From: Caldifarciminota bacterium
GTDB lineage: Bacteria > Hydrothermota > Tepidihabitantia > SM23-42
Assembly: GCA_020349965.1 (NCBI GenBank)
Contig: CP070705.1
Location: 609,934-673,933 of the forward strand
Length of the DNA: 64,000 nucleotides
Direction: 5' to 3'
Part shown: piece by piece, positions 7,750-17,185 of the stretch
How positions within the stretch are numbered: position 1 is the first letter of the stretch
How the letters are laid out: every line of letters starts with the position of its first letter
Notes under the pieces: model-generated
The model's input: only the letters and a program-made list of their open reading frames with translations
What the model was told of the DNA's origin: nothing
Databases searched by the model: none
Translations under genes and position numbers: made by a program

Positions 7750-8328
7750 ATGGGTAAGTCATTGAAAGGAAGTAAAACAGAGAAGAATCTGTTAGCGGCT
7801 TTTGCGGGTGAATCACAGGCCAGGAACCGATACACATACTTTGCTTCCAAAGCGCGTAAAGAAGGCTATGAACAGATATCGGCAATATTGCTTGAGACGG
7901 CAGACAACGAAAAAGAACATGCCAAAGTCTTCTTCAAATATCTTGAGGGCGGCGAGGTCGAGATCACTGCCGGTTATCCGGCTGGAGTGATTGGGGAGAC
8001 CAAGGCCAATCTCGAAGCCGCTGCAGATGGCGAGAACATGGAATGGTCCACGTTGTATGCCAATTTCGGCAAGGTTGCTCAGGAAGAGGGTTTTCTTGAG
8101 GTCGCGCGGTCGTTTGAGCAGATTGCCAAGGTCGAGAAGTTCCACGAATCGCGTTACCGGAAGTTGATCGACAACATTGCGAATAATGAGGTCTTCAAGA
8201 AGAAGAATACAGTTAAATGGCATTGCCGGAATTGCGGCTATGTATATGAGGGAGCAGAACCTCCCAAGGAATGCCCGGCGTGTAAGCACCCCATTTCTTA
8301 CTATGAGGTTTTGGCCGAAAACTTCTGA
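7750..8328 (+). CDS. rbr: Rubrerythrin
   Basis: 192 residues. The N-terminal ferritin-like diiron domain shows GESQARNRY, ETADNEKEHAKVF and EEGFLEVA/HESRYRKL, which carry the Glu and His ligands. The C-terminal rubredoxin-like domain has HCRNCGYVYEG and CPACKHP (two CxxC pairs). Rubrerythrins reduce hydrogen peroxide in the cytoplasm of anaerobes using electrons from rubredoxin or NAD(P)H systems. AAGGAGG lies just upstream of the ATG. A small DUF2892 membrane protein follows 50 nt downstream and may be in the same transcript. Full length, no oddities. Confidence 0.96.
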   Translation: MGKSLKGSKTEKNLLAAFAGESQARNRYTYFASKARKEGYEQISAILLETADNEKEHAKVFFKYLEGGEVEITAGYPAGVIGETKANLEAAADGENMEWSTLYANFGKVAQEEGFLEVARSFEQIAKVEKFHESRYRKLIDNIANNEVFKKKNTVKWHCRNCGYVYEGAEPPKECPACKHPISYYEVLAENF

Positions 8329-8681: not shown

Positions 8682-10133
8682 TCACTCTCTCAGCAGCATG
8701 ACCTGTCGGTTCTCATTGCCCTTGTCTGTGGTGATAGTGCAAATGTAGACCCCTGAACTGAGTGCGTTACCCTTGTCATCCCTGCCATCCCAGAGAACTG
8801 ATGCCTCTTGCGCTGCCGCCGGCAGGTTGTTGGTCAAATCCCTTACCCTCCGTCCGGCAATGTCATATACGATCAATCTGACAGTGCTATGGCCGCTGGG
8901 GATTTCGTATCTGATATTAATACGACCCTCGAAGGGATTGGGGTAGCTCCAGAGAAGGATTCGGTCGTTGGGCGGCTGTAGGGTTTTATCTTCTTCAATT
9001 GACGACGGGACGTCCGGAAGTATCGTGCTTCCCGGACCGCCGTAAGCACCCATGTCGTTTCTCAATAAGCCAAGTGATGGCCACAGCGCATACCCTGGGT
9101 TGAGGGTATCTTCAGGGTCATTATATACTGCGCTTGTGTCACCCCCATCGATGCAGGGAGAGTTCATTGACAGGTAAAGATTCTGCGCCTCGAATAAGGG
9201 GTCGGCATCGATGTTTCCTTCACCCGCATGACCGCCTTGTATGTCCGAGTAGGTAATTAGAACCACGCCACCCGTTTGGAGTATCTGGGCGATTTCATTA
9301 TCCCAGATGATATTGTTACGAAGTGTAGCACTGGCAGCCCAAAATCGTATTCCTCCGCCAGTCGCATACTGTCCTGGTGAATTGTACACGATCGTATTGT
9401 TATTCAGAATCTTCGGGTGGGTTCCATTTTCCAGAATCCACAATCCTCCACCACCGCCATACGCATCACCGGCAGAGTTGTGGGCGATTATGTTATTGCG
9501 GACATTCGCTCCCGTGTAATTCAAGACGATGCCTCCGCCGTAAAGTGCCGAATTGAAGGCGATGATATTGTTGGCAATATCCGGGTTACCGTCACCGCAG
9601 CGTATGGCACCTCCTCCCGTACTTGTTACTCCTGTTTGGTCTGTTATGTGATTATCTCTTATGATGTTATGCCTTATTCTCGGCGAAAGATACTGAATGA
9701 GTATGCCACCGCCTTCACGATATAGGCCGGCACCGTGTTCATCGAGCCATTTCGTTCCTGTTCCGCCCGTGATGGTGAAACCAATGAGCGCGGCCGAGGT
9801 ATCAGCGGTCGTATACGCGCTGTCGCTGACGATTAGAACGCAGCTTCCCGTATCAGGATTCATTGGGCTGCTGCCATCGATAATCGTTTGTTCAATGATC
9901 ATTGGATCGGGATCTACTATGTAGTGGCTCGCGACTACGAGGCCTTTCTCGTGAAAATGTATGTTCTCTTGATACGTACCGGCTGCAACGAGAATGGTAT
10001 CATTGCTGGCTGCTGCATTGATACCTGCTTGTATAGTAGGTTGCTCTCCTGGAACGTTTATGATTGTTCCGAACAGCGGTACAACGATGAGCGGTGCAAT
10101 TACTGCAATCTTCTTAACGTAGGTAAACATCAT
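8682..10133 (-). CDS. Exported right-handed beta-helix protein with FlgD-like C-terminus
   Basis: About 483 residues, starting MMFTYVKKIAVIAPLIVV at ATG 10133 (or the adjacent ATG 10130), preceded by AAGGAGGG. The ATG overlaps the stop of the TetR gene (ATGA), so translation is probably coupled. After the signal peptide, VPGEQPTIQAGINAAASNDTI opens a pectate-lyase-like parallel beta-helix; repeated NNIIxxN and GGGI turns (residues about 120-330) form the coils. The last ~85 residues (SYPNPFEGRINIRYEI, YDIAGRRVRDL, DGRDDKGNALSSGVYI) are a FlgD-Ig/T9SS type A-like sorting domain. Probable cell-surface carbohydrate-binding or structural protein. It is likely controlled by the TetR regulator upstream. 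Confidence 0.87.
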   Translation of the reverse strand: MMFTYVKKIAVIAPLIVVPLFGTIINVPGEQPTIQAGINAAASNDTILVAAGTYQENIHFHEKGLVVASHYIVDPDPMIIEQTIIDGSSPMNPDTGSCVLIVSDSAYTTADTSAALIGFTITGGTGTKWLDEHGAGLYREGGGILIQYLSPRIRHNIIRDNHITDQTGVTSTGGGAIRCGDGNPDIANNIIAFNSALYGGGIVLNYTGANVRNNIIAHNSAGDAYGGGGGLWILENGTHPKILNNNTIVYNSPGQYATGGGIRFWAASATLRNNIIWDNEIAQILQTGGVVLITYSDIQGGHAGEGNIDADPLFEAQNLYLSMNSPCIDGGDTSAVYNDPEDTLNPGYALWPSLGLLRNDMGAYGGPGSTILPDVPSSIEEDKTLQPPNDRILLWSYPNPFEGRINIRYEIPSGHSTVRLIVYDIAGRRVRDLTNNLPAAAQEASVLWDGRDDKGNALSSGVYICTITTDKGNENRQVMLLRE

Positions 10134-10987
10134 CCCTCCTTGTTTGGTGTCGTCGTTACATCCTTCCACGCAGGATTCTTCGCGAGCACAGCGAGTGCTG
10201 CGTTGCGGGCGGATTTTTTGTTCAAAACCTGGGTTTTTTCAAGGAAAGTGGTCATCGTGTTGAGCACTGCGTCAAAGGATTTCAGGTTTCCTCGTTCATC
10301 CGTGCAATACGTGCAATATCTGTTGGTGGTATCCTGATTGGCGAAGTCGGCTGCTCGATGCAGGATCATTGCACAGCTTTCGCACAATACCTTTGCAGTT
10401 CCCTCTGCAGTTGTGGGCGCAGCGTTCTGTTGTGGTTTGCCCATGAAGTTGATCAATTGTTCTGTGAAATCTTCCGAGATGTTATTGTCTTCGAACATGT
10501 AGTCGCCAAAAAAAGAAAGATACGTCATTGCTCCTTGCCAGGCAGTAGAGCGTATCAAGCCTTTATCTGCCCACCGATTGAACGACTCTACGAGGTAGTA
10601 GTTTGCGACCGCCAACAGAGCGATTACCTGTTGTTTTACATCCTCGTTGAAACTGGAGAATCCAGATAACAGTGCTCTGATTGTCCGCCAATTTGAACGG
10701 ACCACATGGCAATGTTCGATGAGAAACTTCTCGAGACTTTCTGATTGAACATAAGCGACGTGCAGTTTATCGGTAACGATGAGGACAAGACGGCGGACGA
10801 CCGACAGGATCAACTCATCACGATTCTTGAAGTGAAAGAAGATCGTGCCGTGCGCAACGGATGCATTTTCTGCAATATTCAGAGTGGAGGCCCCGAAATC
10901 AGTCTCTAAGAGAACTCGTTCGGCCACATCCAGAAGTCTGCTTCTGGTCGTCTGCTTGGCATATTTGCGCATCTTTCTTTTGTGCAC
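10130..10987 (-). CDS. TetR-family regulator fused to a C-terminal zinc ribbon
   Basis: 285 residues from GTG 10987, with AAGGAGGG 7 nt upstream. Residues about 12-65 form a TetR helix-turn-helix (TRSRLLDVAERVLLE, NASVAHGTIFFHFKNRDELIL). Residues 70-190 are the usual ligand/dimer helical region. Residues 200-285 add an unusual tail with C202-x2-C205 and C225-x2-C228 followed by helices; this resembles the 'putative zinc ribbon' of PF12674 (CxSCxMxL...YCTYC). The gene is upstream of, and overlaps, the beta-helix gene. Two tandem TGAGT-N4-ACTCA dyads sit directly after its -10 box, so autoregulation is likely. The zinc ribbon may sense metal or redox state. Confidence 0.88.
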   Translation of the reverse strand: MHKRKMRKYAKQTTRSRLLDVAERVLLETDFGASTLNIAENASVAHGTIFFHFKNRDELILSVVRRLVLIVTDKLHVAYVQSESLEKFLIEHCHVVRSNWRTIRALLSGFSSFNEDVKQQVIALLAVANYYLVESFNRWADKGLIRSTAWQGAMTYLSFFGDYMFEDNNISEDFTEQLINFMGKPQQNAAPTTAEGTAKVLCESCAMILHRAADFANQDTTNRYCTYCTDERGNLKSFDAVLNTMTTFLEKTQVLNKKSARNAALAVLAKNPAWKDVTTTPNKEG

Positions 10988-11004
10988 AGTCCAGCCCTCC
11001 TTTC

Positions 11005-11033
11005 TGAGTTATCACTCATTGAGTACATACTCA
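11005..11033. promoter_or_regulatory. Tandem operators for the TetR regulator
   Basis: Two 14-bp dyads, TGAGT-N4-ACTCA, at 11005-11018 and 11020-11033, are separated by 1 bp (15 bp centre to centre). The second abuts the -10 box of the tetR promoter, covering the likely start site. Proposed autorepression sites; the dyads are seen directly, the role is inferred. Confidence 0.7.
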
Positions 11034-11061
11034 ATTATAATGAAAATCTGGTGTTTGTCAA
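11034..11061 (-). promoter_or_regulatory. Promoter for the TetR/beta-helix operon
   Basis: TTGACA (11061-11056), 16-bp spacer, TATAAT (11039-11034): consensus hexamers on the minus strand, followed at once by the operator dyads. Confidence 0.8.
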
Positions 11062-11231: not shown

Positions 11232-12065
11232 ATGATCAGTGCACTCGGCATTATCTTGGTTATTGGCCAGCTAAGTAGTCTATCTGTGGGTGCGATGTTT
11301 GGGAGTATGATGGTCGGCTTCTTCGAAAAGACCGAAGAATTCCGGGAGACCTACAGAGTCTCGCCAGATACGAGATTGATGATCGAGAATATCAACGGAA
11401 ATATCAAGGTCATTGAGTGGAGCGAGAATTATGTTGAGGTATATGCGCAGAAGAAGACGAACCACGGTCAGGAGGAGTTGGACAAAGTAAGGATCGACGT
11501 TGTGACCGATGGAATATTGCACGTACGAACCGAGTATCTTGAGAAAGAAGTACGGGCGTCAGTTCATTACGTACTGCGTGTTCCTGATGGTGTCGTTGTC
11601 GACCTCGTGAAGACGTCAAATGGCCGTATCGACATGGAGGGGACGGAGGGTGACACCGAGATAATGACTTCGAACGGGGATGTCGATGTGCTGGACGTCA
11701 CAGGAAGTGTCCGAATACAGACGGCTAATGGTAAAATACAGGTTAAAGGCAAGACCGTGGTCCGTGAGGCCAGCACCTCCAACGGGGACATCCGTATGGA
11801 AATCTATAGCGTTCCCGAAGGCGGCTCCACGATCGCAACAAGTAATGGTTCGATTGATCTCTATGTCGACGACGGATTGAATGCTGATTTGCGCGGTGCG
11901 ACGTCGCATGGAAAGATATCGACGAAAGACCTTACTCTGCAGTCTCGATTAAATGCTACTGCTCAATCTGCGACATTCGTCACGGGGAAGGTCGGTGCGG
12001 GCGGCAGCTTGATTGATTTAAGCACATCAAACGGCGATATAAGGTTGTACGGATTGGGTAAATAA
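11232..12065 (+). CDS. DUF4097-family exported beta-repeat protein
   Basis: 277 residues from ATG 11232, which has AGGAGGT 3 nt upstream; the frame is open further upstream without a better start. The N-terminal hydrophobic segment (MISALGIILVIGQLSSLSVGAMFG) is a signal peptide or anchor. The rest is a beta-solenoid with repeated (T/A)SNGxI/ANGKI turns (KTSNGRID, TSNGDVDV, TANGKIQV, TSNGDIRM, TSNGSIDL, TSNGDIRL). This is typical of DUF4097/adhesin-like proteins that are often under stress or sigma-factor control. Role unknown, probably envelope. I could not place a convincing promoter in 11062-11231. Confidence 0.85.
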   Translation: MISALGIILVIGQLSSLSVGAMFGSMMVGFFEKTEEFRETYRVSPDTRLMIENINGNIKVIEWSENYVEVYAQKKTNHGQEELDKVRIDVVTDGILHVRTEYLEKEVRASVHYVLRVPDGVVVDLVKTSNGRIDMEGTEGDTEIMTSNGDVDVLDVTGSVRIQTANGKIQVKGKTVVREASTSNGDIRMEIYSVPEGGSTIATSNGSIDLYVDDGLNADLRGATSHGKISTKDLTLQSRLNATAQSATFVTGKVGAGGSLIDLSTSNGDIRLYGLGK

Positions 12066-12888: not shown

Positions 12889-12941
12889 ACAATAGATTGC
12901 TTGAGGTGTATTAATGGCCTGTATTGTATTTAGGAGGACCG

Positions 12942-13385
12942 ATGGGAAGTGATGCAGCAGATATTGGGAACCGCATTGTGCTGCACTTCGAGGATAACAG
13001 GTTGCTCAAAGGCTACACGAACGACTTCACTCCTCTGAGGGAGAAGTTTCACCTGGTGTCGGAAGATGAGTGGGACAAGGGCAGTATCTATGAAGTCCAT
13101 TGCTCAGACCTGAAGGCGATCTTCTTCGTAAAGACGCTTGAAGGGAATAGGGATTATATCGAGAAGAAGGATTTCACCGATGTTGACACTCAGGGGCTCC
13201 GGGGTTTGAAGGTGAAGGTGGTATTTCCGGATGGCGAAGTGATCCGCGGAACGAGTTTTGGTTACAGCCGAAGACGCAAAGGCTTCTTCGTCGTTCCGGT
13301 CGACCCCGAAAGCAATAATGAACGTATCTACGTAGTCACTGATAAAGTCCGTGCCGTTCGCGTTGGCGCCGAGGCTGAGCGATAA
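12942..13385 (+). CDS. Conserved small-domain protein, copy 1
   Basis: 147 residues from ATG 12942, with AGGAGG 4-5 nt upstream. The sequence NRIVLHFEDNRLLKGYTNDFTP, LKAIFFVKTLEGN, GLRGLKVKVVFPDGEVIRG and FGYSRRRKGFFVVPVDPESNNERIYVV is about 60% identical by eye to the protein at 16742. The pattern 'F.DGRLLKG.T.DF.P....FHL...LKAIFFVK' is a conserved domain that I recall as PilZ-like/DUF6982-type, without certainty. Beta-rich, no signal peptide, cytosolic. Such domains might bind nucleotides or sit beside signalling proteins, but nothing here proves it. Confidence 0.78.
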   Translation: MGSDAADIGNRIVLHFEDNRLLKGYTNDFTPLREKFHLVSEDEWDKGSIYEVHCSDLKAIFFVKTLEGNRDYIEKKDFTDVDTQGLRGLKVKVVFPDGEVIRGTSFGYSRRRKGFFVVPVDPESNNERIYVVTDKVRAVRVGAEAER

Positions 13386-16694: not shown

Positions 16695-16722
16695 TTGACA
16701 GGTCAAGAAATATGGCTATGTT
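16695..16722 (+). promoter_or_regulatory. Promoter for the conserved-domain gene at 16742
   Basis: TTGACA 16695-16700, 16-bp spacer, TATGTT 16717-16722; AGGAGG follows at 16731-16736. Confidence 0.6.
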
Positions 16723-16741
16723 CTTAGAGAAGGAGGTTTGT

Positions 16742-17185
16742 ATGATGGATGGGGTGACCACCGACAGAAACCGTATCGTTGTGCGCTTCAAGGACGGGAG
16801 ACTACTCAAAGGCTTCACGCATGACTTTACACCGGTCAAGGATTCCTTTCACCTAACCTCTGAATTGGAGAGTGATCGCGGTCAGATCCACGAAATTTTC
16901 TGCCCGAATCTGAAGGCAATATTCTTTGTGAAGACCTTGAACGGCAATGTAAACTACAAAGAGAAAAAGAGGTTCGATGAAGTGGACACATCCGGTCTGA
17001 GGGGTATCAAGATAAAAGTTGAGTTCAATGACGGCGAGGTGTTGCGCGGGATCAGTCTTGGCTACAGCAGGACGCGTAAGGGTTTCTTCGTCATACCCGT
17101 TGATCCAAACAGCAATAATGAACGCGTGTATGTCATTTCCAATGCCGTGCGTGACGTCAAGTTAGGTAGCGCGGCAGAAAAATAA
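16742..17185 (+). CDS. Conserved small-domain protein, copy 2
   Basis: 147 residues from ATG 16742 (or 16745); AGGAGG at 16731-16736 decides the start over the upstream in-frame ATG. It is a paralogue of the 12942 product: RIVVRFKDGRLLKGFTHDFTP, NLKAIFFVKTLNGN, GLRGIKIKVEFNDGEVLRG, KGFFVIPVDPNSNNERVYVI. The two are of equal length and collinear, so the duplication is complete. Each has its own promoter, and the two are separated by the DUF885 and MATE genes. Function unknown; soluble and cytosolic by sequence. Confidence 0.78.
   Translation: MMDGVTTDRNRIVVRFKDGRLLKGFTHDFTPVKDSFHLTSELESDRGQIHEIFCPNLKAIFFVKTLNGNVNYKEKKRFDEVDTSGLRGIKIKVEFNDGEVLRGISLGYSRTRKGFFVIPVDPNSNNERVYVISNAVRDVKLGSAAEK

Follow-up and report, generated by a model that had tools for sequence, protein, structure and literature searches.

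What does a TetR-type regulator with a zinc-ribbon tail do with two palindromes placed behind the -10 box of its own promoter? The question is raised by a locus in the window analysed here, a stretch of 64,000 nucleotides that is part of a genome of the candidate phylum WOR-3 (G000, 2.30 Mb, one contig of 2,297,753 bases). The locus comprises the following features:

8682-10133, minus strand: gene downstream of tetR, encoding a secreted protein of the right-handed beta-helix type whose C-terminus is a sorting tail (Por_Secre_tail/FlgD_ig)
10130-10987, minus strand: tetR-like gene of 285 aa, with TetR_N, ligand-domain helices and a C-terminal Zn_ribbon_2 (C202/C205/C225/C228)
10163-10387, minus strand: Zn_ribbon_2 (PF12674) domain, residues 201-275, by Pfam match
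10995-11001, minus strand: ribosome binding site AGGAGGG, from the sequence
11005-11018, minus strand: putative operator dyad 2, TGAGTGATAACTCA, at a distance of 15 bp from dyad 1, just 5' of the ribosome binding site
11020-11033, minus strand: putative operator dyad 1, TGAGTATGTACTCA, abutting the -10 box with zero gap
11034-11039, minus strand: -10 box TATAAT, kept in six orthologues
11056-11061, minus strand: -35 box TTGACA, kept in six orthologues
11233-12065, plus strand: divergent gene for a DUF4097 (toastrack, LiaG-like) secreted protein, a neighbour of the regulator shared by four of the six WOR-3 genomes

We consider it probable that the regulator is a TetR-family repressor which acts on two tandem operators over its own start and keeps the tetR/beta-helix operon silent until a signal arrives, with the zinc ribbon as an accessory. 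The regulator would bind the two 14-bp operators, probably as two dimers, and once bound would cover the point at which its own promoter starts transcription. Binding would repress the operon of tetR and the beta-helix surface protein, and a signal would release the repressor from the operators. With the palindromes 15 bp apart, each dimer would sit on a face of the helix roughly opposite to that of the other.

The tetR reading frame starts with GTG, and this start is supported by an orthologue of 89% identity that has ATG at the identical place. Both TetR_N (PF00440, residues 18-62; 32.8 bits against a Pfam gathering score of 24) and the zinc ribbon (31.9 bits against 22.5, with the whole model covered, 1-81) exceed the Pfam cut-offs, so that the TetR regulator with a zinc-ribbon tail described in the first-pass annotation stands. 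The likeness of its C-terminal C202xxC205/C225xxC228 module to PF12674 was borne out as well, by the full-model match and by two CxxC pairs that are unchanged in all six orthologues. The six WOR-3 genomes with an orthologue (G000, G001, G002, G010, G011 and G020) form one family (f1); the five further orthologues are 89, 61, 55, 53 and 51% identical, and the nearest named relative lies in the candidate division WOR-3 genome CP070795.1 (89% identity). In the AF2 model of the regulator, the TetR helices (residues 1-183) are followed by a small domain that stands apart and by another three helices; between residues 141 and 200, where the ligand domain ends and the linker lies, the model has a low confidence of 50-62. 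A Foldseek search with this model returned exclusively TetR-type regulators among the best 50 matches (E from 1e-4), the nearest folds in the PDB being the TetR regulators FasR, PfmR and FadR. From these data we infer that Zn_ribbon_2 is a zinc-stabilised accessory module, presumably occupied by zinc, that is appended to a complete TetR ligand domain. Because the TetR core needs no zinc ribbon to be complete, the input is possibly the ligand pocket, and the small-molecule pocket of the full-length TetR may serve as the sensor.

The tetR promoter (11061-11034, minus strand) reads TTGACA-N16-TATAAT, matches the consensus at 12 of 12 positions and is the sole such site in 3.9 kb. Dyad 1 opens at the next base after TATAAT, in agreement with the claim that the dyads lie directly behind the regulator's own -10 box, and three bases separate the end of dyad 2 from the ribosome binding site. 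The dyads had been described as identical and 15 bp apart; positions and arms are as claimed, but the identity does not extend to the N4 spacers, which differ. Two TGAGT-N4-ACTCA dyads were observed in the window versus 0.05 expected, a number reached by none of 100 shuffles. As transcription is expected to start about 7 nt past a -10 box, the tetR start would fall inside dyad 1. Repression with autoregulation is favoured because the sites sit on the transcription start of a consensus promoter. Some TetR-family members act as activators, and this regulator could in principle be one of them; this is very unlikely, given that the sites lie directly behind the -10 box, where bound protein blocks the polymerase, and that a perfect-consensus promoter needs no activator. 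It appears extremely improbable that the dyads are RNA hairpins of the leader which control translation, and not DNA operators. The leader is foldable (consensus -13.4 kcal/mol), but the consensus fold pairs arms across the dyads and its covariation term is small (-0.25). Moreover, variants such as TGAGC...ACTCA disrupt pairing within a dyad, and the left arm of dyad 1 would remain untranscribed with the expected start inside it.

A scan of 390 genomes for the pattern TGAGY-N4-RCTCA-N-TGAGY-N4-RCTCA found the exact tandem pair in all seven genomes with linked TetR and PF12674 versus one of the 383 others, namely in the six WOR-3 genomes with the fused gene, in G294 (from a phylum other than WOR-3 that was sampled by three genomes) and in G355. 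The Fisher p value of 3e-14, which is uncorrected for the relatedness of the six WOR-3 genomes, overstates independence, because six of the seven genomes are one family; G294 and Desantisbacteria represent separate lineages. The reversed pattern, used as a control, had zero matches across the 390 genomes, and a protein-profile search of the same set detected a TetR-PF12674 fusion or linked pair in no genome beyond those seven. Rather than being common or unconnected with tetR, a concern raised with the original proposal, the tandem pair is near-exclusive to loci with TetR and Zn_ribbon_2. Judged from these counts, the dyads are not a product of chance and are best read as a predicted TetR operator for autorepression. 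The G355 site was attributed to chance, lying inside a glutamate-synthase-like gene in sequence coding for an SMSQD repeat, as was a site in G174, which is located at a gene end and matches only with one mismatch. A single dyad behind a TATAAT in G005 was also judged to be chance, the regulator being absent from that genome.

A search of the 2.30-Mb genome for more TGAGT-N4-ACTCA sites, as the first-pass annotation had suggested, yielded three exact dyads in total. The third (G000:C1:676276) was rejected as a target; it is single, has no -10 box before it, and the count equals the chance expectation. Sites with up to two mismatches gave no sign of a larger regulon in the 2.3-Mb genome (102 versus 98 in the control, no excess), and the four sites with one mismatch were dismissed, none having a convincing promoter. 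No full-length relative of the regulator was detected in viral contigs, phages and plasmids, and stand-alone PF12674 genes in WOR-3 had no TetR within the scanned flanks of up to 1.5 kb.

In all six WOR-3 orthologues the tandem pair is kept at a constant distance from the -10 box. Across these six sites, 18 of the 20 columns in the arms do not vary, versus one of nine in the spacers; with the sites of Desantisbacteria and G294 and that of another G001 promoter added, the nine sites retain 17 of 20 versus none of nine. The proposed search for other TetR-PF12674 fusions was productive: among the genomes searched, the fusion occurs only in the six-genome WOR-3 family f1 and in one Desantisbacteria genome, whose fused protein (contig L031) is 44% identical and has the tandem pair in front. 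In G294, tetR and Zn_ribbon_2 follow each other as separate adjacent genes, with the tandem pair kept before tetR. The two Dojkabacteria loci (L032 and L033) are likewise split, with only one similar dyad before tetR, the spacer of which has 3 bases in L033. The split TetR proteins have about 190 aa. The presence of Zn_ribbon_2 as a separate gene at the equivalent place in other phyla suggests that it works with TetR.

The overlap of the beta-helix gene with tetR, noted in the first-pass annotation, is real but smaller than the list of open reading frames implied. The likeliest start is the ATG at 10133 or 10130, not the GTG at 10169, and overlaps the tetR stop codon (ATGA). The sorting tail scored 36.2 bits with TIGR04183 (cut-off 23) and 29.5 bits with PF18962 (cut-off 27), and the Beta_helix profile is matched by an orthologue of the protein. 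By its C-terminal domain, the product is predicted to be a T9SS-type sorted surface protein. Genome-wide, Por_Secre_tail matches number 67 in G000 and 96 in G001, which is many for genomes of 2.3-2.5 Mb. A sorted beta-helix gene lies behind tetR in five of the six WOR-3 genomes, directly in G000, G002, G001 and G020 and, in G010, with an esterase-like gene inserted between the two; it is absent at this place in G011. G001 contains a second exact tandem pair (L104:7205-7233; G001:C48:27704-27732), directly behind the -10 box of a TTGACA-TATAAT promoter, about 85 bases upstream of a YCF48/BNR-type repeat protein with a similar C-terminal sorting tail and with no tetR nearby. The position of this second putative operator is suggestive of a link to surface proteins rather than proof of one, because the roughly 96 sorting tails in the 2.5-Mb G001 genome mean that an estimated 4% of genes would match by chance.

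Outside WOR-3, no beta-helix surface gene was present at the tetR loci of Desantisbacteria, Dojkabacteria L033 and G294. The neighbours there, named from sequence reading, are a cysteine desulfurase-like gene, an undecaprenyl-diphosphatase-like gene and a membrane protein, respectively. As the neighbours differ, the surface protein is a cargo specific to WOR-3, and the core conserved across phyla consists of TetR, zinc ribbon and the putative operators. The compact circuit for a surface protein that had been proposed is thus supported in part: the operators lie in the regulator's own promoter and the beta-helix operon is kept in WOR-3, but the cargo is absent in other phyla. The dyads do not obviously extend over the promoter of the divergent DUF4097 gene.

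The zinc ribbon may have a structural role, provide contacts, or sense metal or redox state. As a contact module it would join two TetR dimers on the sites spaced 15 bp apart, or recruit a partner, for cooperativity. Tandem sites accompany fused or split zinc ribbons in eight loci and the low-confidence AF2 linker suggests a mobile domain, but Dojkabacteria have TetR and zinc ribbon and yet a single dyad; we regard this role as conceivable, if doubtful. Alternatively, oxidation of C202/C205/C225/C228 or gain and loss of zinc could alter DNA binding, which would make the ribbon itself the sensor of a metal or redox circuit. All four cysteines are invariant, a rubrerythrin gene adjoins the locus in three genomes, and SczA is a known TetR-family zinc regulator. 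However, a purely structural zinc site would equally predict invariant CxxC pairs, the split proteins have a complete TetR ligand domain that lacks the ribbon, and in the orthologue loci examined none of the genes beside the regulator was recognisable as one for metal transport or efflux, so that a sensing ribbon seems rather unlikely. A further reading, of rather low probability, is that TetR and Zn_ribbon_2, whether fused or encoded by adjacent genes, make up a regulatory pair not described before and found across phyla, which would use tandem TGAGY-N4-RCTCA operators and the ribbon as active signal input and which WOR-3 would have linked to sorted surface proteins.

Among known systems, QacR binds as two dimers, and CprB shows two-dimer binding, is autoregulatory and sits on its own promoter (PMC4150764). 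The WOR-3 regulator resembles both in its N-terminal TetR_N helix-turn-helix, its all-helical core and an operator with room for two dimers. It differs in its operator, which consists of two distinct palindromes, each intact, at a spacing of 15 bp, where those proteins use one shared, often non-palindromic site, and in the extra C-terminal PF12674 domain. The acyl-CoA-responsive regulators FasR, FadR and PfmR are its best PDB fold matches, although identity over the core is only 14-22%, they lack a zinc ribbon and, unlike in their case, no fatty-acid genes were found linked to the regulator. The tail resembles PF12674 proteins in its score above the family cut-off, its four cysteines and its C-terminal helices, whereas most members found occupy a frame of their own, roughly 80-150 codons long. 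The literature also describes a zinc-binding protein with two CxxC motifs, FA519 of Filifactor (PMC8579941). Fusion of a helix-turn-helix to PF12674 is not unique as such, because an XRE-type fusion to Zn_ribbon_2 exists in G375 (L161; G375:C7:113104-113340). For TetR with PF12674, the literature searched contained no report; TetR autorepressors are ordinary, and this combination would be the new part. It ties PF12674, a domain of unknown role, to one regulator family and a recognisable operator, fused and split, in several phyla. A single small protein and a 30-bp DNA thereby suffice for a direct test of what the zinc ribbon does, and the control of surface proteins in uncultured WOR-3 bacteria becomes accessible at the level of sequence.

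Some further observations concern the surroundings of the locus. In G000 (window 7750-8328), G002 and G001, the rubrerythrin gene lies a short distance from the beta-helix gene. Two similar proteins are encoded close together at 12924-13385 and 16712-17185 of the window, the first of which matches DUF6982 (PF22478). Just outside the window, between the region of an ffh-like gene and an ABC transporter, a consensus promoter precedes a structured, GC-rich stretch and a strong terminator-like hairpin with a T run (L024:2310-2480; G000:C1 ~676310-676480). This element had no Rfam match and is a possible small RNA.
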